This document shows positions 21,707 through 35,646 of a stretch of DNA of 39,532 nucleotides, piece by piece. How positions within the stretch are numbered: position 1 is the stretch's first letter; each line of letters begins with the position of its first letter. This stretch comes from Rhodoferax sp. OV413 (GTDB lineage: Bacteria > Pseudomonadota > Gammaproteobacteria > Burkholderiales > Burkholderiaceae_C). Under the pieces are notes generated by a model. The model was not told where the DNA came from and ran no database searches. It was given only the letters and a program-made list of their open reading frames with translations. Location: positions 1 through 39,532 of the forward strand of contig NZ_CAMCVG010000013.1 in the NCBI RefSeq assembly GCF_945881795.1, given 5' to 3'. The position numbers and the translations under genes were made by a program.

Positions 21707-21826
21707 GAGTCAAATCAATATCGCTATATCAGGCTTCGTGGGTATGAAGTTTTACAATAGAGGGTTCCGCCCCAGGCCGTGTCCGGCCTTGTGGTGCGCC
21801 CCATTTTGACCCCCAACAAGGCCCCC

Positions 21827-22603
21827 ATGAGTGCATTTCTGGAAGAAACAGTTTTAAGCGTACACCACTGGACAGACCGCTTGTTCAGCTTCACCACCAC
21901 GCGGGACCCGGCGCTGCGTTTTTCGAACGGCCACTTCACCATGATTGGATTGATGCAGGACAACGGCAAGCCGCTGCTGCGCGCCTATTCCATCGTCAGC
22001 GCCAATTACGAGGAACACCTTGAGTTCTTGAGCATCAAGGTGCAAGACGGCCCGCTCACCTCGCGGCTGCAGCACATCCAGGTCGGCGACAAGATTGTGG
22101 TGGGCCGCAAGCCCACGGGGACCTTGCTGATTGACTACCTCCTGCCTGGCAAAAACCTGTACCTGCTGGGCAGCGGCACCGGGCTTGCGCCTTTCTTGAG
22201 CGTGGTGCGCGATCCTGAGACCTACGAAAAGTTTGAAAAAGTCATCGTGGTGCACGGCGTGCGCGAGGTCAAAGAACTGGCCTACTACGACTACTTCAAA
22301 ACCGAGCTGCCGCAGCACGAGTTCCTGGGTGAGATGGTCACCAAGCAGATGCTCTACTACCCGACCGTCACCCGCGAAGCCTTTGAGCACCAGGGCCGCA
22401 TCACCACGCTGATTGAATCGAACAAGCTGCCCGCTGACCTGGGCCTGCCGCCGCTGGACCCGGCTGTTGACCGCATCATGATTTGCGGCAGCCCCGGCCT
22501 GAATAAAGACATGCGCGAAATCCTCGACGCCAAAGGCTTCAAGGAAGGCAACACCACCACGCCGGGCGACTACGTGGTGGAGCGTGCGTTCGTCGAGCAA
22601 TAA
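21827..22603 (+). CDS. fpr: Ferredoxin--NADP+ reductase
   Basis: This 258-residue FAD enzyme exchanges electrons between NADPH and ferredoxin or flavodoxin. FAD-binding motif RAYSIVSANYEEHLEF sits at about 47-62. The NADP-binding loop GSGTGLAPFLSVVRDPETYEKF follows, and later come ICGSPGLNKDMREIL and a C-terminal YVVERAFVEQ matching subclass I/Fpr enzymes of proteobacteria. I chose the ATG at 21827 (AAGG upstream, starts MSAFLEE as in the family); the frame is open 16 codons further. A strong terminator follows. fpr supplies reduced ferredoxin for Fe-S repair and oxidative-stress defence. Confidence 0.95.
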   Translation: MSAFLEETVLSVHHWTDRLFSFTTTRDPALRFSNGHFTMIGLMQDNGKPLLRAYSIVSANYEEHLEFLSIKVQDGPLTSRLQHIQVGDKIVVGRKPTGTLLIDYLLPGKNLYLLGSGTGLAPFLSVVRDPETYEKFEKVIVVHGVREVKELAYYDYFKTELPQHEFLGEMVTKQMLYYPTVTREAFEHQGRITTLIESNKLPADLGLPPLDPAVDRIMICGSPGLNKDMREILDAKGFKEGNTTTPGDYVVERAFVEQ

Positions 22604-22637
22604 GACGATGGGCTCGGGTGAGCCGCCTCGACGGATG

Positions 22638-22662
22638 AAAGGCCTGCTTGCAGGCCTTTTTT
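22638..22662 (+). terminator. Rho-independent terminator of fpr
   Basis: The perfect 10-base stem AAAGGCCTGC / GCAGGCCTTT with a 2-3 base loop runs into TTTTTT. It lies 35 bases after the fpr stop. Its far end overlaps the stop of the converging TIGR03643 gene. Confidence 0.92.
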
Positions 22663-22909
22663 ATGCCTGGCGGGTGTGGCGGGCGCGGTGCCGCTGTACC
22701 TCGGGCGAGCGAAGCGCGCGGTGCTTGGTCACCCGCCCGGCCATGCGTTTGCGCCACATGCGGAACGAGCTGGGCTTCATGTGGGAGCGCATCAAGGCAA
22801 TCACGCCCGATTCATTCAAACCGAATTGCACCTCGATGGACTCGAACGGCGTGCGGTCCTCCCACGCCATCTCGACGATGCGGGAAACGTCTGCGTCGGT
22901 AAGCGTCAT
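22661..22909 (-). CDS. TIGR03643 family protein
   Basis: The 82-residue basic protein matches the TIGR03643 family pattern: SRIVEMAWEDRTPFESIEVQFGL, then VIALMRSHMKPSSFRMWRKRMAGRVTKHRALR. The first half looks like a helix-turn-helix (AWEDRTPFESIEVQFGLNESGVIALMR), the second is Arg/Lys-rich. That would fit nucleic-acid binding, but no function is established. From memory, relatives often occur near photolyase or cryptochrome-like genes; none is in this window. The start codon overlaps the stop of the DUF3429 gene as ATGA, so the two are translationally coupled. I rejected the longer open frame to 23416 because it covers the DUF3429 gene out of frame. Confidence 0.85.
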   Translation of the reverse strand: MTLTDADVSRIVEMAWEDRTPFESIEVQFGLNESGVIALMRSHMKPSSFRMWRKRMAGRVTKHRALRSPEVQRHRARHTRQA

Positions 22910-23376
22910 GCGACCTGACTGCCTGACAGCAGGCTCAGGGCCGCCACCACACTCAGGTGCAGCCGCATACCCAGCCATGCGCCCAAACCATAGGCCGGGT
23001 AGATGCGCCGATCTACCGCCAGACAAATGCCCAGCAGCAGGGCCACCGTGACCAGCCCTTGCGATACGGGCATCAGCAATGCCACCCACGCCACCAGGCT
23101 GGGAAACACCCCCCACAAAAACGGACCCGCTTGCAGCGCGAGCGGCCCGCGCATCGCCAGGCCCCAGTGGATCGCGCCCAGGAAGCTGGCAATCGCTGCT
23201 CCGTAGGCCAGCAGGGCAAAGGCCGCCTGCCCACGGTAGGCCGCCGGCGCCATCCAGGCAGCCGCGGCCAGCGCGACGAAGGGAATCAAACCGGCATAAC
23301 CCAGTGCTGCCGCCCAGCGGGGCAGGGGAGCGTCTTGCAGCGGAGTATTGGGCAGTGTTTCGGGCAGTGTGCTCAT
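22906..23376 (-). CDS. DUF3429 family integral membrane protein
   Basis: The 156-residue hydrophobic protein has about five membrane segments (roughly 20-42, 51-72, 84-103, 106-124, 137-153). The FLGAIHWGLAM stretch near residues 65-75, with a membrane-embedded His-Trp, is characteristic of DUF3429. Function is unknown. It overlaps the upstream Cys-rich gene by ATGA at its start and the downstream TIGR03643 gene by ATGA at its end, so the three form one translationally coupled unit. I chose the ATG at 23376 because the upstream extension of the frame is a shadow of the Cys-rich gene. Confidence 0.85.
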   Translation of the reverse strand: MSTLPETLPNTPLQDAPLPRWAAALGYAGLIPFVALAAAAWMAPAAYRGQAAFALLAYGAAIASFLGAIHWGLAMRGPLALQAGPFLWGVFPSLVAWVALLMPVSQGLVTVALLLGICLAVDRRIYPAYGLGAWLGMRLHLSVVAALSLLSGSQVA

Positions 23377-23579
23377 GGTGTATCGCCTGATCCTGACCCG
23401 GCATCTGCCCATCCACCGGCAGACCCTAGGGCCGACCCAGGGGCCGCATCTGACAGCGCATCTAAGGGCGGGCGGCACATGGCGGTGCCGTTCCATTGCT
23501 GGCCGCACCAGCACAGTCCCTCTGCGTTGATGATGCAGGTGCCGGTGCCGGTGCCGCAGCAGCGTTCGTCGTCTTCCAT
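23373..23579 (-). CDS. Cysteine-rich mini-protein of unknown function
   Basis: The 68-residue protein has six Cys (7, 8, 15, 23, 25, 35) in a compact block: CCGTGTGTCI, GLCWCGQQWNG and MCRPP. A tail of about 30 residues rich in Ala, Gly, Ser and Asp follows. No signal peptide is present, so the cysteines probably bind metal (zinc or iron-sulfur) in the cytoplasm. The ATG at 23579 has AGGAC in good position. Its stop overlaps the start of the DUF3429 gene (ATGA). I do not recognise a named family, though I believe similar proteins exist in Comamonadaceae. The frame continues upstream without a ribosome-binding site. Confidence 0.7.
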   Translation of the reverse strand: MEDDERCCGTGTGTCIINAEGLCWCGQQWNGTAMCRPPLDALSDAAPGSALGSAGGWADAGSGSGDTP

Positions 23580-23712
23580 GGGGTGTCCTGAATATCCGTG
23601 TGAAACAAAATCGTGGGCCGCTGTGGCAGCATCCGTGGCTTCAATTTTGCTGGAATCAGCACCGCCCGTTTGCGGGGGGGCTTTTTCCCTGACTTCAGAA
23701 AGCCAGTTCACC

Positions 23713-24072
23713 ATGTCCGCTCTCAATGTTTTAGGCACTGCGCTACAGGCCTGCTCGTACGACCCGCTGACAGGTTATTTTCGCGACGGTTGCTGCAACA
23801 CCGATGCGCACGATCACGGCACCCATGTGGTGTGCGCCAAGGTCACCGCCGAGTTCCTTGCGTACTCTCTGAAGCGCGGGAACGATCTGGTCACCCCCCG
23901 GCCGGAGTACCGCTTTTCCGGTCTGCGCCCCGGGGACCGCTGGTGCCTGTGCGTCAACCGTTGGCTGGAGGCGCTGGAGGCCGGCGTCGCGCCGCCGGTG
24001 CATCTGGAGGCCACCAACGCCCATGCACTCGAGCGTGTGGGCCTCGATCAGCTAAAGGAATACGCGCTCTAG
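23713..24072 (+). CDS. DUF2237 family protein
   Basis: The 119-residue protein is a clear match to DUF2237: NVLGTALQACSYDPLTGYFRDGCC, DHGTHVVCAKVTAEFLAYSLKRGNDLVTP and FSGLRPGDRWCLCVNRWLEAL. The many conserved Cys, His and Asp suggest metal binding, but no function is established. It is divergent from the Cys-rich mini-protein gene, with 133 bases between. The small lipocalin gene follows 51 bases downstream in the same direction. Confidence 0.92.
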   Translation: MSALNVLGTALQACSYDPLTGYFRDGCCNTDAHDHGTHVVCAKVTAEFLAYSLKRGNDLVTPRPEYRFSGLRPGDRWCLCVNRWLEALEAGVAPPVHLEATNAHALERVGLDQLKEYAL

Positions 24073-24123
24073 GTCGGTGCGCTGCCGCACACCGCGATGT
24101 GTGTTCCTAGGCATACTGGGGGC

Positions 24124-24684
24124 ATGAAAAACAAACTTCTTCTGGTGTGTCTGGGCTTGGTGTGGGGTTTGGACCCGGGCTGGGTTCATGCGGGGCAACC
24201 CGCCGTGCCGGCGCCACTCCAGCCGGTTGAAAGCATCGAGCTGCCTCGCTACATGGGCACCTGGTACGAGATTGCCAAGTACCCCAACAGCTTTCAGAAA
24301 AAATGCTTCCGCAACACCCGTGCGGACTACCAGGCGCAGCCCGATGGCACGGTCCGGGTGCTCAACCGCTGCGTGACCGCGGACGGACAGACCACCGAGG
24401 CGGTGGGCTCCGCACGCCAACCGGGGCCTGCCAGCTCGCCCAAGCTGGAGGTGCGCTTTGCACCGTCGTGGTTGTCGTTTCTGCCGTTTGTCTGGGGCGA
24501 TTACTGGGTGATTGACATCGACCCGCAGTACCGTCTGGTGGCGGTGAGCGAGCCCAAGCGAGAGTACCTGTGGATCCTGTCCCGCACCTCGCGGGTGGAC
24601 TACGCGGTCTACCAGGCGCTGTTGGGCCGCCTGGCGCAGCGCGGGTTTGATATTGAGCGACTCGAGTCGAGCCCGCAGGACTAG
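24124..24684 (+). CDS. Periplasmic lipocalin (Blc-like)
   Basis: The 186-residue protein of the bacterial lipocalin family binds hydrophobic molecules such as lysophospholipids in a beta barrel. An N-terminal signal peptide (KNKLLLVCLGLVWGL, likely cleavage after VHA at 23) is present. There is no lipobox Cys, so unlike E. coli Blc it is probably soluble in the periplasm. The lipocalin motif GTWYEIAKYPNSFQKKC sits at 45-61. A second Cys83 can form the conserved disulfide with Cys61. YWVIDIDPQYRLVAVSEPKREYLWILSR matches the later strands. I chose the ATG at 24124 so that the signal peptide is at the N-terminus. It converges with dinG. Confidence 0.93.
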   Translation: MKNKLLLVCLGLVWGLDPGWVHAGQPAVPAPLQPVESIELPRYMGTWYEIAKYPNSFQKKCFRNTRADYQAQPDGTVRVLNRCVTADGQTTEAVGSARQPGPASSPKLEVRFAPSWLSFLPFVWGDYWVIDIDPQYRLVAVSEPKREYLWILSRTSRVDYAVYQALLGRLAQRGFDIERLESSPQD

Positions 24685-32702: not shown

Positions 32703-33603
32703 ACACGCTGCGCCACTGCGCCACCCAGGTGGCCAGTGCATCCGCGGTGTTTCCCTTCACCTCTCCCAGCCCCAACGCCGTTGCCGCTTCCTGCAAAGCG
32801 GCCAGCGGGTCGCGCAGGTCCAGCGCCTGGGCGCCGTTTTGCTTGCTCAGTTTTTCGCCGTCGGGGCCGCGCACCAGTGGGGTATGCAGATAAATGGGTG
32901 TGAGCATGCCGAGTGCGGCCTGCAGGGCGATTTGGCGCACGGTGTTGTCGGCCAGGTCCTCGCCCCGCACCACATGGGTCACGCTCTGCGCCGCGTCGTC
33001 CACCACCACCGCCAGCTGGTAGGCCCACAGCCCGTCTGCGCGCAGCAGCACAAAGTCGCCCACCTCAGCTTCGAGCTGCTGCTGTTGCGGCCCCAGCCGA
33101 CGGTCGCTCCAGTGCCAGGCCGGGTTGCTCGAGCGTGAGGCCAGGTCGGTGCGAAACCGCCAGGCCGGGCCCGGCCGTCTCGCGGCAGAGTTTTCCTGCG
33201 CCACACCTTGCCTGCAGGTGCCGGGGTAAATGAGTTCGCCATGGCGGGGTCTGCTGCTGCCGGCAGCGGCCAGCGCCTGGGCAATGTCTTTGCGCGAGCA
33301 GGTGCAGGGGTAGGCCATGCCGGCCACTTGCAGCGCGGTCAAGGCCAGCTGGTAGTGGCTGCTGCGCGCGCTTTGCCACAAGGGGGGCTCATCGGGCTGC
33401 AGGCCGCAGGCGGCGAGCTGCTGCAGGATGAAGGCGTCAGCGCCGCTCACGCAGCGCGGCGTGTCCAGGTCTTCGATGCGCACCAGCCAGCGGCCGCTGT
33501 GGGCGCGGGCGTCGAGCCAGCTGGCCAGGGCTGCAAGCAAAGAGCCCGCATGCAGCGGGCCCGTGGGGGAGGGGGCAAAGCGCCCGGTGTACCCCGGCGT
33601 CAC
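32692..33603 (-). CDS. gluQ: Glutamyl-Q tRNA(Asp) synthetase
   Basis: The 303-residue enzyme is a shortened glutamyl-tRNA synthetase lacking the anticodon-binding domain, which attaches glutamate to queuosine in tRNA-Asp. The HIGH-like motif appears as [16 protein letters not shown] (7-22) and the KMSKS equivalent as KLSKQNGA. The zinc site CTCSRKDI followed by YPGTC is characteristic of GluQ. I chose GTG at 33603, which overlaps the stop of the upstream oxidoreductase as GTGA; the protein then starts [15 protein letters not shown], as expected. The frame continues upstream to 34038 but only as a shadow of the oxidoreductase gene. Confidence 0.93.
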
Positions 33604-34643
33604 GCCACTTTCAGTGCCATTTCCAGGCCCGAGACAAAGGCGTCTTCGACGCGGTGGCCGATGCACCAGTCGCCGCACAGGCCGATGCGGGCCTTGGCGT
33701 CCCACAGGTAGGCGTCGCCCAGCGGGGTCTCGGTTTTGGCGTAAAGCCAGCGGTGCATTTGCACCAGCGCGGGCTCGGCGTAGATGCCGGAAATCTCGGA
33801 AAACGCCTTCATCATCTTGGCCTGCACCCGCTCGGGGCTGTCGTGCAAGTGCTCTTGCGACCAGGCGGCGCTGGCCTGCACCGTCCAGCGCTCTACCTTG
33901 CCGCGCCCGGGCTTGCTCGACTCGCGCGCCAGCCATGCAATGCGGTGGTGGGTGCTGCGGGCGGCATTCCAGTGCGGGCCGAGGGTGGTCAGGCCGGGCT
34001 GCACCGCCTGCGGGTAGGCCAGCATCATGGTCCAGCACGGGGCCACCGTGACCTTGTTGAGCTTCTTGGCCAATGGCGCGCCTTTGGGCGTTGTGGCCAG
34101 CAGCTCCTGCGCCTGCGGGTGCGGTATGGCCAGCAGCACCGCATCAAAGCCGCTGTGCACATGGGTGCTGCCGCCTTCGCCCTCGGTGCGCAGCTGCCAC
34201 AGGTTGATGTTGATGGCGTCTTGCTCAATGGCGGCCACGCGGGTGTTCACCAGCAAACGACCGGCCTCCGCCAGAGGATGGGCCCAGGCGCGCACCAGCG
34301 CATTCATGCCCGGGGTAGGCACCCAGTGCGCATCCCGCCCGGGCAGGGCGGCCGCAGCCACGCGACCGTGCGAGTCCAGCAGGCGCACCGAGTTCGCGCT
34401 CCAGGGGCGGCACATGCCCGGTGTGGTTTGCAGGGCCCGGGTGAAGCGCTCGTCGCGCACGGTGAAGTACTGCGCGCCGTGGTCAAAGGTGCCGAAGGCG
34501 CTCTCGCGGGTCGACATGCGGCCGCCGGCGGCGCGGCTTTTTTCAAACACAGTGACCTGGTGGCCGGCCTGGGCCAGCGTACGCGCACAGGTGATGGCCG
34601 CCATGCCGGCGCCCACGATGGCAATGTGTCGGGAAGTGGTCAT
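33600..34643 (-). CDS. FAD-dependent oxidoreductase, renalase-like
   Basis: The 347-residue flavoprotein shows a Rossmann-type dinucleotide motif, [19 protein letters not shown], with Ala in the position of the third glycine, and a ribose-binding Glu in [14 protein letters not shown]. The AAGGRM segment is typical of amine-oxidase-like and renalase-like enzymes. [12 protein letters not shown] and the C-terminal [22 protein letters not shown] complete the FAD site. Substrate is not known; bacterial renalases oxidise aberrant NAD(P)H isomers, a plausible role. AGGAG stands before the ATG at 34643. Its stop overlaps the gluQ start. Confidence 0.88.
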
Positions 34644-34704
34644 GGGCGCAGACTCCTGTGGTGTGAATGGCCTCTTTATACACGCTGGTGCAGCGCAAAA
34701 TTGT

Positions 34705-35646
34705 TTACGCGCTGCGGTGTTCCTCCACCAGTGCGCTGCGGGTGGTTTCGCTCTCCAGCTGTTGCAGCCACCAGGCCAGCGCCTGCCCTTGGTGGATGGT
34801 CTTGGTCTGCCGCCATGCGTAGTGCAGCGGTACGGTGCGCTGGGGCCGCTCGGTTTTTTTAACCACCAGCCGGCCGGTGCTGATGTAGCTCTCGGCCATG
34901 CTGCGCGGCAGGTTGCCTCCGCCGAGTCCGCGCAGCTGGGCGTCCAGCTTGGCCTGCATGGTGGGCACGGTGAAAACATCCTGTCCGCTGAGCAGGCCGT
35001 AGGTCTGGCCGTTGCCGCGCTGCACCGAGTCGGCCACCGCCACCGCGCGGTGTTTTTGAATCAGCTCGTCGCTGAGCGGCTCGGCAACCCGGGCCAGCGG
35101 GTGGTGAGGGGCCACCGCAAACACAAAGGGAATGATGCCCAGCGGTTTGCTGTGGACGCCGGCCGTGCGGGCCGAGTCCGGGCCCACACCCAGCGCCAGG
35201 TCGGCCTGCCCGCTGGTGAGCGCCTCCAGCGTGCCGGAGAGGGTCTCCTCGCGGATGCGGATACGAGTGGGCGGCGCGAGGCTGAAAAAGCTTTCGCACA
35301 GCTCCATCACTACCGGCTTGGAAATCACCGTGTCCACCGCAATGGTGAGCTGCGGCTCCCAGCCGGTGGCTACACGCTTGACGCGGTTGGCCACCGCGTC
35401 AATTTCCTCCAGCAGGCGCGCGCCTTCGCGCAGCAGCTCGGCGCCGGCGGCGGTGAGCCGGGCCTGGCGGGAGCTGCGGTCATAGAGCAGAACGTCCAGC
35501 GCATCCTCAATCTGGCGTACCCGGTAGGTCAGGGCGCTGGGCACCATGCCCATTTCGCGGGCCGCGGCCGCAAAGCTGCCCGCCTTGGCAATGCTTTGCA
35601 GCATGGCCAGCGCATCGGGGGTCAAAAAGTCGCGTGCAGTTTGCAT
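34705..35646 (-). CDS. LysR-family transcriptional regulator
   Basis: The 313-residue regulator has an N-terminal winged HTH (about 8-67; LQSIAKAGSFAAAAREMGMVPSALTYRVRQIEDAL) and a two-lobed effector domain (about 90-300). The LTYRVRQIE variant of the usual S..i..LE pattern belongs to a subgroup with loosely defined ligands. It is divergent from the pirin gene, and a T-N11-A type inverted repeat lies between them. It therefore probably controls pirin and wrbA, and itself. Confidence 0.94.
   Translation of the reverse strand: MQTARDFLTPDALAMLQSIAKAGSFAAAAREMGMVPSALTYRVRQIEDALDVLLYDRSSRQARLTAAGAELLREGARLLEEIDAVANRVKRVATGWEPQLTIAVDTVISKPVVMELCESFFSLAPPTRIRIREETLSGTLEALTSGQADLALGVGPDSARTAGVHSKPLGIIPFVFAVAPHHPLARVAEPLSDELIQKHRAVAVADSVQRGNGQTYGLLSGQDVFTVPTMQAKLDAQLRGLGGGNLPRSMAESYISTGRLVVKKTERPQRTVPLHYAWRQTKTIHQGQALAWWLQQLESETTRSALVEEHRSA

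Follow-up and report, generated by a model that had tools for sequence, protein, structure and literature searches.

Three small genes on the minus strand of a 39,532-nucleotide stretch of Rhodoferax sp. OV413 DNA (the window; contig C13 of a 2.35 Mb draft genome that is 97.7% complete) encode a six-cysteine mini-protein, a DUF3429 membrane protein and a DUF2805 (TIGR03643) protein. We propose, with a probability of roughly 0.6 for the reading as a whole, including the roles suggested below for its products, that this trio is an accessory operon of a bacterial light/UV-stress (photoreactivation) programme. The narrower statement that the trio is associated with such a programme is the safer one, and we hold it to be quite probable. 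DUF2805 and DUF3429 are photolyase-associated by phyletic co-occurrence, and the genes of the trio are found beside photolyase genes in a number of relatives.

DUF2805, DUF3429 and DUF2237, the last encoded by a divergent neighbour of the trio, are families without assigned function. Their statistical tie to a photolyase family, set against an unrelated control family that shows no such link, makes a role in light or UV survival directly testable. The mini-protein has no family assignment in any of the libraries searched, and its small size would allow quick biochemical tests.

Co-occurrence with a photolyase family across the class

The class-wide comparison rests on 321 genomes, sampled evenly across the class, with PhoX as control, and its p-values ignore the relatedness of the genomes. 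DUF2805 was found in 18 of these genomes, the deoxyribodipyrimidine photo-lyase-related family (DPRP, PF04244) in 58, DUF3429 in 59, DUF2237 in 66 and PhoX in 94. Seventeen of the 18 DUF2805 genomes also carry DPRP (3.3 expected, p 4e-13) and 16 carry DUF3429 (3.3 expected, p 3e-11), figures that become 16 and 15 of 18 once weak or partial matches are removed; DUF2237 is present in 11 of the 18 (3.7 expected, p 1e-4). DPRP and DUF3429 occur together in 40 genomes, that is, in 40 of 58 DPRP genomes and 40 of 59 DUF3429 genomes (10.7 expected, p 1e-22). The PhoX control shows no link, either with DUF2805 (5 of 18 genomes, 5.3 expected, p 0.65) or with DPRP (20 of 58, 17.0 expected). DUF2237 for its part co-occurs strongly with both DPRP (33 of 58 genomes, 11.9 expected) and DUF3429 (34 of 59, 12.1 expected).

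We take the DPRP family to correspond to the prokaryotic (6-4) photolyases, or FeS-BCP. PF04244 has matches in the genome of Synechococcus elongatus, which served as a control. FeS-BCP proteins are (6-4) photolyases (PMC9178010), and the accessible text of that paper names neither PF04244 nor DPRP.

Gene neighbourhoods in relatives

The mini-protein was tested for co-occurrence in 61 relatives (the OV413 genome itself, 36 of the same genus and 24 of the same order). Relatives of the mini-protein are present in 25 of them at E<=0.01, one match being weak (E 0.0035), DUF2805 in 23, DUF3429 in 26 and DPRP in 31; 19 of the 25 mini-protein genomes also carry DPRP (p 0.001). Where both members of a pair are present, they lie at most 10 kb apart in 13 of 18 genomes for the mini-protein and DUF2805, 13 of 17 for the mini-protein and DUF3429, 10 of 17 for DUF2805 and DUF3429, 10 of 22 for DUF2805 and DPRP, 8 of 19 for the mini-protein and DPRP, and 7 of 21 for DUF3429 and DPRP.

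Twenty neighbourhoods selected for gene closeness, one of them the DPRP locus of OV413 itself, were clustered automatically, a procedure that missed some small genes; cluster representatives were named by Pfam, except for MiaB, named from its sequence. DPRP is present in 19 of these neighbourhoods, class I photolyase in 14, DUF2805 in 12, SDR in 10, DUF2256 in 8 and DUF3429 in 7, with MerR (5), MiaB (5), SOUL (4), the mini-protein (4) and Rrf2 (3) as rarer members. Gene order in one of them (L213) is SOUL, DPRP, SDR, Rrf2, MerR, mini-protein, an unnamed open reading frame (ORF) and DUF3429, with photolyase genes further on; two others (L210 and L211) read DUF3429, mini-protein, DUF2805, Rrf2, MerR, an unnamed ORF, DUF2256, DPRP and SOUL. 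The DPRP gene of locus L079, in a G+C-rich genome, has an antisense ORF of 585 aa opposite it.

Among genome contigs, 396 stretches encode a relative of the mini-protein; the best 80 were taken as loci, and 77 of these were parsed automatically. The arrangement seen in the window recurs in the Comamonadaceae, block carriers including Rhodoferax bucti and other Rhodoferax and Comamonadaceae records. The complete block, running from lipocalin and DUF2237 through the mini-protein, DUF3429 and DUF2805 to the ferredoxin--NADP+ reductase-like (FNR) and thioredoxin genes, is present in 6 of the 80 loci (L080, L084, L085, L089, L094 and L106). Among the 77 parsed loci the mini-protein and DUF3429 genes are adjacent in 20 cases, 18 of which retain the ATGA joint, and coordinates give the same four-base overlap in L094, which the parser missed and which was also left out of the upstream alignment. 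A four-base overlap of DUF3429 and DUF2805 is likewise seen in L080, L084, L085, L087, L089, L094 and L106, and not in L091, L138 and L142. Other orders exist as well: DUF2805, mini-protein and DUF3429 in two genomes (G017 and G027), mini-protein and DUF2805 in another (G004), and mini-protein with DUF3429 alone elsewhere. A trio restricted to one strain, or made up of families otherwise unlinked, had been named as the outcome that would speak against a unit. Gene-neighbourhood analysis finds that the trio recurs in relatives and that its families are linked; the unit is thus real beyond this strain, and that objection falls away.

Layout of the locus

The architecture described by the sequence-only reading holds in its particulars (Table 1). 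Both joints of the trio are exact four-base ATGA overlaps on the minus strand, the 68-residue mini-protein carries its six cysteines in the order CC, C, CxC, C, and the DUF2237 gene does start 133 bases away on the opposite strand. The family names DUF3429, TIGR03643 and DUF2237 all lie above their curated cut-offs, the matches reaching 108.9 bits for DUF3429 (cut-off 39.1), 117.1 bits for DUF2805 (22.5) and 116.3 bits for TIGR03643 (66.55). The overlaps support an operon, in which the three genes would share a single transcript, and coupled translation of the trio. Equal translation, which had also been read from them, does not follow, the overlap itself being no proof of it. According to Pfam, FNR-like reductase and thioredoxin-like genes flank the trio on one side, and DUF2237 and lipocalin genes on the other.

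Table 1. Features of the trio locus, in coordinates of the window
Feature	Position	Strand	Remarks
Six-cysteine mini-protein gene	23373..23579	-	68 aa; Cys order CC, C, CxC, C
DUF3429 (PF11911) membrane protein	22906..23376	-	156 aa; Pfam
DUF2805 (PF10985) / TIGR03643 protein	22661..22909	-	82 aa; Pfam and NCBIfam
ATGA overlap, mini-protein/DUF3429	23373..23376	-	exactly four shared bases
ATGA overlap, DUF3429/DUF2805	22906..22909	-	exactly four shared bases
DUF2237 gene, divergent from mini-protein gene	23713..24072	+	Pfam 184.4 bits (cut-off 25)
Divergent intergenic region, mini-protein/DUF2237	23580..23712	.	133 bp
Lipocalin (Lipocalin_2) gene	24097..24684	+	beyond DUF2237
Ferredoxin--NADP+ reductase-like (FNR) gene, convergent	21779..22603	+	Pfam domains over cut-off; top NCBIfam model under its cut-off
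Inverted repeat and T-run, AAAGGCCTGC TT GCAGGCCTTT TTTA	22638..22663	.	between the DUF2805 and FNR 3' ends

The mini-protein and its changing partners

By eye, the core of the mini-protein reads DxRCC-(GT)GTGTC-IINAEG-xCWCGQxWxGxxMC and is followed by a low-complexity tail. Of the parsed copies, 71 of 77 bacterial and 38 of 45 viral ones show exactly the cysteine spacing CC-x4-C-x7-CxC-x9-C, and the core is under purifying selection (median ratio of nonsynonymous to synonymous polymorphism, pN/pS, 0.18 over 77 sequences). Between its CC pair and its third cysteine, the copy in the window has a two-residue GT insertion, from a GGCACC repeat, that the other aligned copies lack. No family was found above cut-off or at significance in Pfam, NCBIfam (E<=1) or PHROG (E<=0.01); the top Pfam match is DUF7871 (E 0.031, 14.8 bits), which falls under its cut-off of 29.5, and EGF_Teneurin gives a sub-threshold match in 7 of 14 members, at best 0.06. 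Compared with PDB sequences, neither the mini-protein nor DUF3429 nor DUF2805 yielded a meaningful match. Judging from its cysteines, the mini-protein is somewhat more apt than not to bind a metal or redox cofactor.

The surroundings of the mini-protein gene change from locus to locus. Within 3.5 kb of it, the 80 loci contain DUF3429 (24 loci), DUF2805 (24), DUF2237 (14), ChrR-like Cupin_7 (12), photolyase (12), lipocalin (11), DUF2256 (8), DPRP (7), MFS (7), SOUL (5), SDR (4), MerR (2) and Rrf2 (2) genes. At least one family of the light-associated set, from which MFS is excluded, lies within this distance in 54 of the 80 loci. Where both 10-kb arms were available (29 loci), such a family is near in 18 and at 6.5-10 kb in 2, a comparison that is descriptive because the light set was partly drawn from the same loci. 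An ATGA joins the stop codon of the mini-protein gene to the DUF3429 start in 18 loci; in another six the gene so joined is a Cupin_7, SOUL, ChaN-like or histidine-phosphatase gene, and four more cupin genes, with a GTG start, overlap it by four bases. These partners were named from the overlap analysis and Pfam scans or, for unscanned ones, by sequence likeness judged by eye. The trio is thus a modular unit, the mini-protein gene having other neighbours in many loci. An MFS transporter gene, Bcr/CflA-like by eye and scanned in L107, lies downstream of the mini-protein gene in L096, L098, L099, L107, L113, L130 and L143, where no light-set family is found within 3.5 kb.

Carriage of the mini-protein by phages

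The mini-protein is also encoded on contigs of uncultivated phages: 28 IMG/VR contigs, or 46 with a broader profile, some of them near-identical. The viral stretches fetched have a G+C content of 0.36-0.46 in 45 cases and 0.62 in one (L276), the median for the bacterial loci being 0.61. L276 carries a bacterial-type mini-protein, and its classification as viral probably hides a bacterial or prophage origin. Phage-borne copies are found in L255-L300 (e.g. L273:10001-10174, L264:10001-10144 and L272:9992-10141), and one subgroup of them has a conserved C-terminal extension; the match on L271 is partial and was unread by the parser.

Phage genes were identified on the contigs examined, a subset of the 46. 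They include RIIA on L261 and L271, tail-fibre/baseplate matches on L272, an exonuclease on L233 and L289, QueE on L233 and a ClpP-type protease on L237 and L263, and 90 phage-locus ORFs scanned together also gave DNA ligase, family B DNA polymerase and ribonucleotide reductase (RNR). Because of these genes, we consider the phages that bear the mini-protein to be probably T4-like. In many viral loci a Bax1-I (BI-1) or Band_7 (SPFH) gene directly precedes the mini-protein gene, and in some ClpP follows it. No match to DUF2805, DUF3429, DUF2237, DPRP or lipocalin was found in the viral stretches fetched. A plasmid collection queried with the OV413 mini-protein and a collection of isolated phages queried with a phage-contig mini-protein gave no match either. 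The presence of the mini-protein on phage contigs suggests a function of value to both host and virus.

Structural models of DUF3429 and DUF2805

The AlphaFold2 model of DUF3429 is all helical, with a predicted local distance difference test (pLDDT) score of 92.1. A His-Trp pair, H70-W71, is invariant in 19 aligned sequences and sits inside a long predicted helix (residues 45-76). In fold comparison the best match (Z 8.9) is a designed bundle, followed by copper storage proteins at Z 7-8; a functional reading of this fold was dropped, the resemblance being one of helical bundles, with Z at most 8.9.

For DUF2805 the model predicts five helices (pLDDT 77.9, falling below 50 from residue 74 to the C-terminus), with a helix-turn-helix-like (HTH-like) part at residues 5-57 and a basic C-terminal half. 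Its top structural matches include the HTH regulators GcrA, LsrR, SorC and TrpR and sigma region 4, among unrelated proteins; Foldseek matches are weak (E 2.6 or worse), and a weak Sigma70_r4 match (E 0.089) appears in 1 of 17 members. The best second-look match is to the GcrA N-terminus (Z 5.3, root-mean-square deviation 1.9, 45 residues, 24% identity). Kinship with GcrA was rejected as a structural hint that the sequence profile, which has no GcrA match, does not bear out. On the strength of the model, the odds that DUF2805 binds DNA are about even.

Functional interpretation and alternative explanations

Under the light/UV-stress reading, the operon would belong to a programme whose photolyase cluster it adjoins in many relatives and lies apart from in its own lineage. 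One transcript with coupled translation would give rise to three products, presumably induced by light. DUF2805 would be a small HTH-like, probably DNA-binding protein working alongside the (6-4) photolyase in one programme, as a co-regulator or a lesion-handling partner, and DUF3429 would be a helical inner-membrane protein of the light/UV-stress response. The mini-protein would be a soluble six-cysteine protein holding a metal or redox cofactor through its CC/C/CxC/C pattern. We infer these DNA-binding, membrane and cofactor roles from fold, hydrophobicity and cysteine pattern. The physical partner of the mini-protein may be whichever stress protein the next gene downstream encodes, DUF3429 in this locus and ChrR-like cupin, SOUL or ChaN-type haem proteins elsewhere; that it acts with this protein is a tentative idea that we think rather unlikely. 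Still more speculative, and in our view doubtful, is a broader picture in which the mini-proteins form an undescribed family of small cofactor-binding partners, common to Comamonadaceae-type bacteria and large, probably T4-like phages. Each would be translated directly together with a membrane or haem/stress protein that varies between loci (in bacteria DUF3429, ChrR-like cupin, SOUL or ChaN; on phage contigs BI-1 or SPFH with ClpP) and would protect or switch this partner under light or membrane stress. DUF2805 would be a DNA-binding partner dedicated to the Fe-S (6-4) photolyase programme.

Several observations weigh against a light/UV-stress operon. DUF2805 is absent from 41 of the 58 DPRP genomes of the class sample, in which physical closeness is also modest: the two genes are 15 kb apart or less in 3 of 17 genomes for DUF2805 and DPRP (two of one genus), 6 of 40 for DUF3429 and DPRP, and 2 of 16 for DUF2805 and DUF3429 (one being the OV413 genome). 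In OV413 itself the two photolyase genes, DUF2256 and DPRP are on contig C5 and the trio on C13; in two other genomes (G001 and G007) trio and DPRP share a contig at a distance of about 1 Mb, and in two more (G020 and G033) they are on separate contigs. Seven of the 25 mini-protein genomes lack DUF2805, eight lack DUF3429 and six lack DPRP. Fold matches are weak and leave homology unproven (no Foldseek E below 0.8; top Z 5.3 for DUF2805 and 8.9 for DUF3429). The one MerR neighbour scanned showed MerR domains only, with no B12-binding domain detected, a ChrR-type promoter is not enriched, and no chrR gene was found in the OV413 assembly. In the accessible text of a marine metagenome correlation study, DUF2805 and DUF3429 are grouped with translation-related domains, not with light (PMC3597751), and a rare fusion of DUF2805 to a Nudix NADH pyrophosphatase, a single case, is reported in the part available of another source (PMC6856373). 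Finally, in 26 of the 80 mini-protein loci the light set is not represented within 3.5 kb. The sequence-only reading had put the trio forward as an undescribed functional unit. This is partly right: the literature queried by name for DUF2805, TIGR03643 and DUF3429, with subscription journals thinly covered, gives no function for them, and the unit is a modular one.

The first interpretation of the trio was as a possible metal- or redox-responsive membrane process. In such a unit, not specific to light, the mini-protein would sense metal or redox state, DUF3429 would transport or relay and DUF2805 would regulate. The conservation of the cysteine pattern in bacterial and viral copies alike agrees with it, as do the SOUL and ChaN partners of the mini-protein, which are haem-binding, and the likeness of the DUF3429 model to copper-storage bundles, at a Z level (7-8) that is common for bundles. 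Rrf2 proteins often carry Fe-S clusters, and Rrf2 and the cysteine-rich DUF2256 are present in some neighbourhoods. Against this, the trio has no significant sequence match to any known metal-binding, transport or redox family, and the strongest statistical links, among compared families that include no metal family, are with photolyase families. The stronger evidence points to photolyase and light-stress accessory genes, and we retain the metal/redox explanation as an unlikely rival.

We give equally small credence to the possibility that membrane and stress proteins in general are served by the mini-protein as a small translation-coupled leader or chaperone-like protein, which phages carry too, and that the link with light is a by-product of where its partners lie. 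Partner switching would fit this, including the seven of 80 loci with an MFS gene, none of which has a light-set family near, and so would the phage copies beside BI-1, SPFH or ClpP without trio-associated families. On the other hand, many of the bacterial partners belong to light or photo-oxidative-stress families, with the same near/far contrast (18 against 2 of 29 loci, the set coming in part from these same loci). A chance or purely housekeeping-linked operon, in which genes of unrelated function share a promoter near alaS and the FNR gene in one lineage, is improbable: four-base gene overlaps are common in bacteria and the exact block is complete in few loci, but these genes are also found together elsewhere and in different orders (G017, G027, G004 and others), and this repeated regrouping argues against chance.

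Regulation and related systems

Among known systems, the LitR/CarH-type clusters of Pseudomonas (phrB, ufaM, SDR, cryB and unknown genes) resemble the neighbourhoods described here in that photolyase, cryB-like photolyase, SDR and MerR genes recur around the trio genes in relatives. They differ in that clustering found no MerR gene in 14 kb of the OV413 photolyase locus and none among the identified neighbours of the trio itself. The trio may be under MerR/LitR control. LitR- and ChrR-type light regulons contain photolyases together with unknown genes, according to the accessible parts of three reports (PMC9758184, PMC5241685 and PMC11417400). The likeness to the ChrR/sigma-E regulon of V. cholerae and R. 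sphaeroides lies in the ChrR-like Cupin_7 genes that overlap the mini-protein gene by four bases in several loci, whereas TIGR02451 (ChrR) has no match in the OV413 assembly. A ChrR/sigma-E promoter for the mini-protein gene was also looked for and found no support: TGATC-N17..19-CGTAT-like sites with at most two mismatches occur in 6 of 78 upstream regions (the 77 parsed loci and the window) against a shuffle mean of 6.6. The upstream region in the window has one TGATT-N18-CGGAT site.

DUF2256 is a further small cysteine-rich protein near photolyase genes; its pattern is CxxC...CxxxC, in contrast with CC/C/CxC/C in the mini-protein. A literature search for DUF2256 with photolyase, covering subscription journals thinly, found nothing. 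The resemblance of DUF2805 to the GcrA N-terminal HTH is within the range common for HTH proteins. DUF2237 is enriched in phototrophs, and a Synechocystis knockout differed from wild type in a phototaxis assay, as far as the accessible text of the report goes (PMC5932025). A fungal mitochondrial DUF3429 protein is on record, its role given as unknown in the part of the source available.

A near-palindrome, TGCCAC-N-G(T/C)GGC, at 23617-23631, about 37-40 bases upstream of the mini-protein start, is conserved in trio loci and is a candidate regulon operator; counted in 8 genomes regardless of the adjoining gene, the pattern has 110 matches against 64 for its reversed control. No sigma-70 promoter was found in 22550-23800, and no Rfam RNA element at gathering threshold in the whole window. 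The inverted repeat and T-run at 22638-22663 are a likely shared terminator of DUF2805 and FNR; this repeat was read by eye, and a scan needing a loop of at least 3 did not report it. Elsewhere in the window, an ORF at 33600-34979 contains an FAD-binding-like segment and is amine oxidase/renalase-like by eye. A Pseudomonas light cluster includes an FAD-dependent oxidoreductase, as described in the accessible portion of the literature on it.

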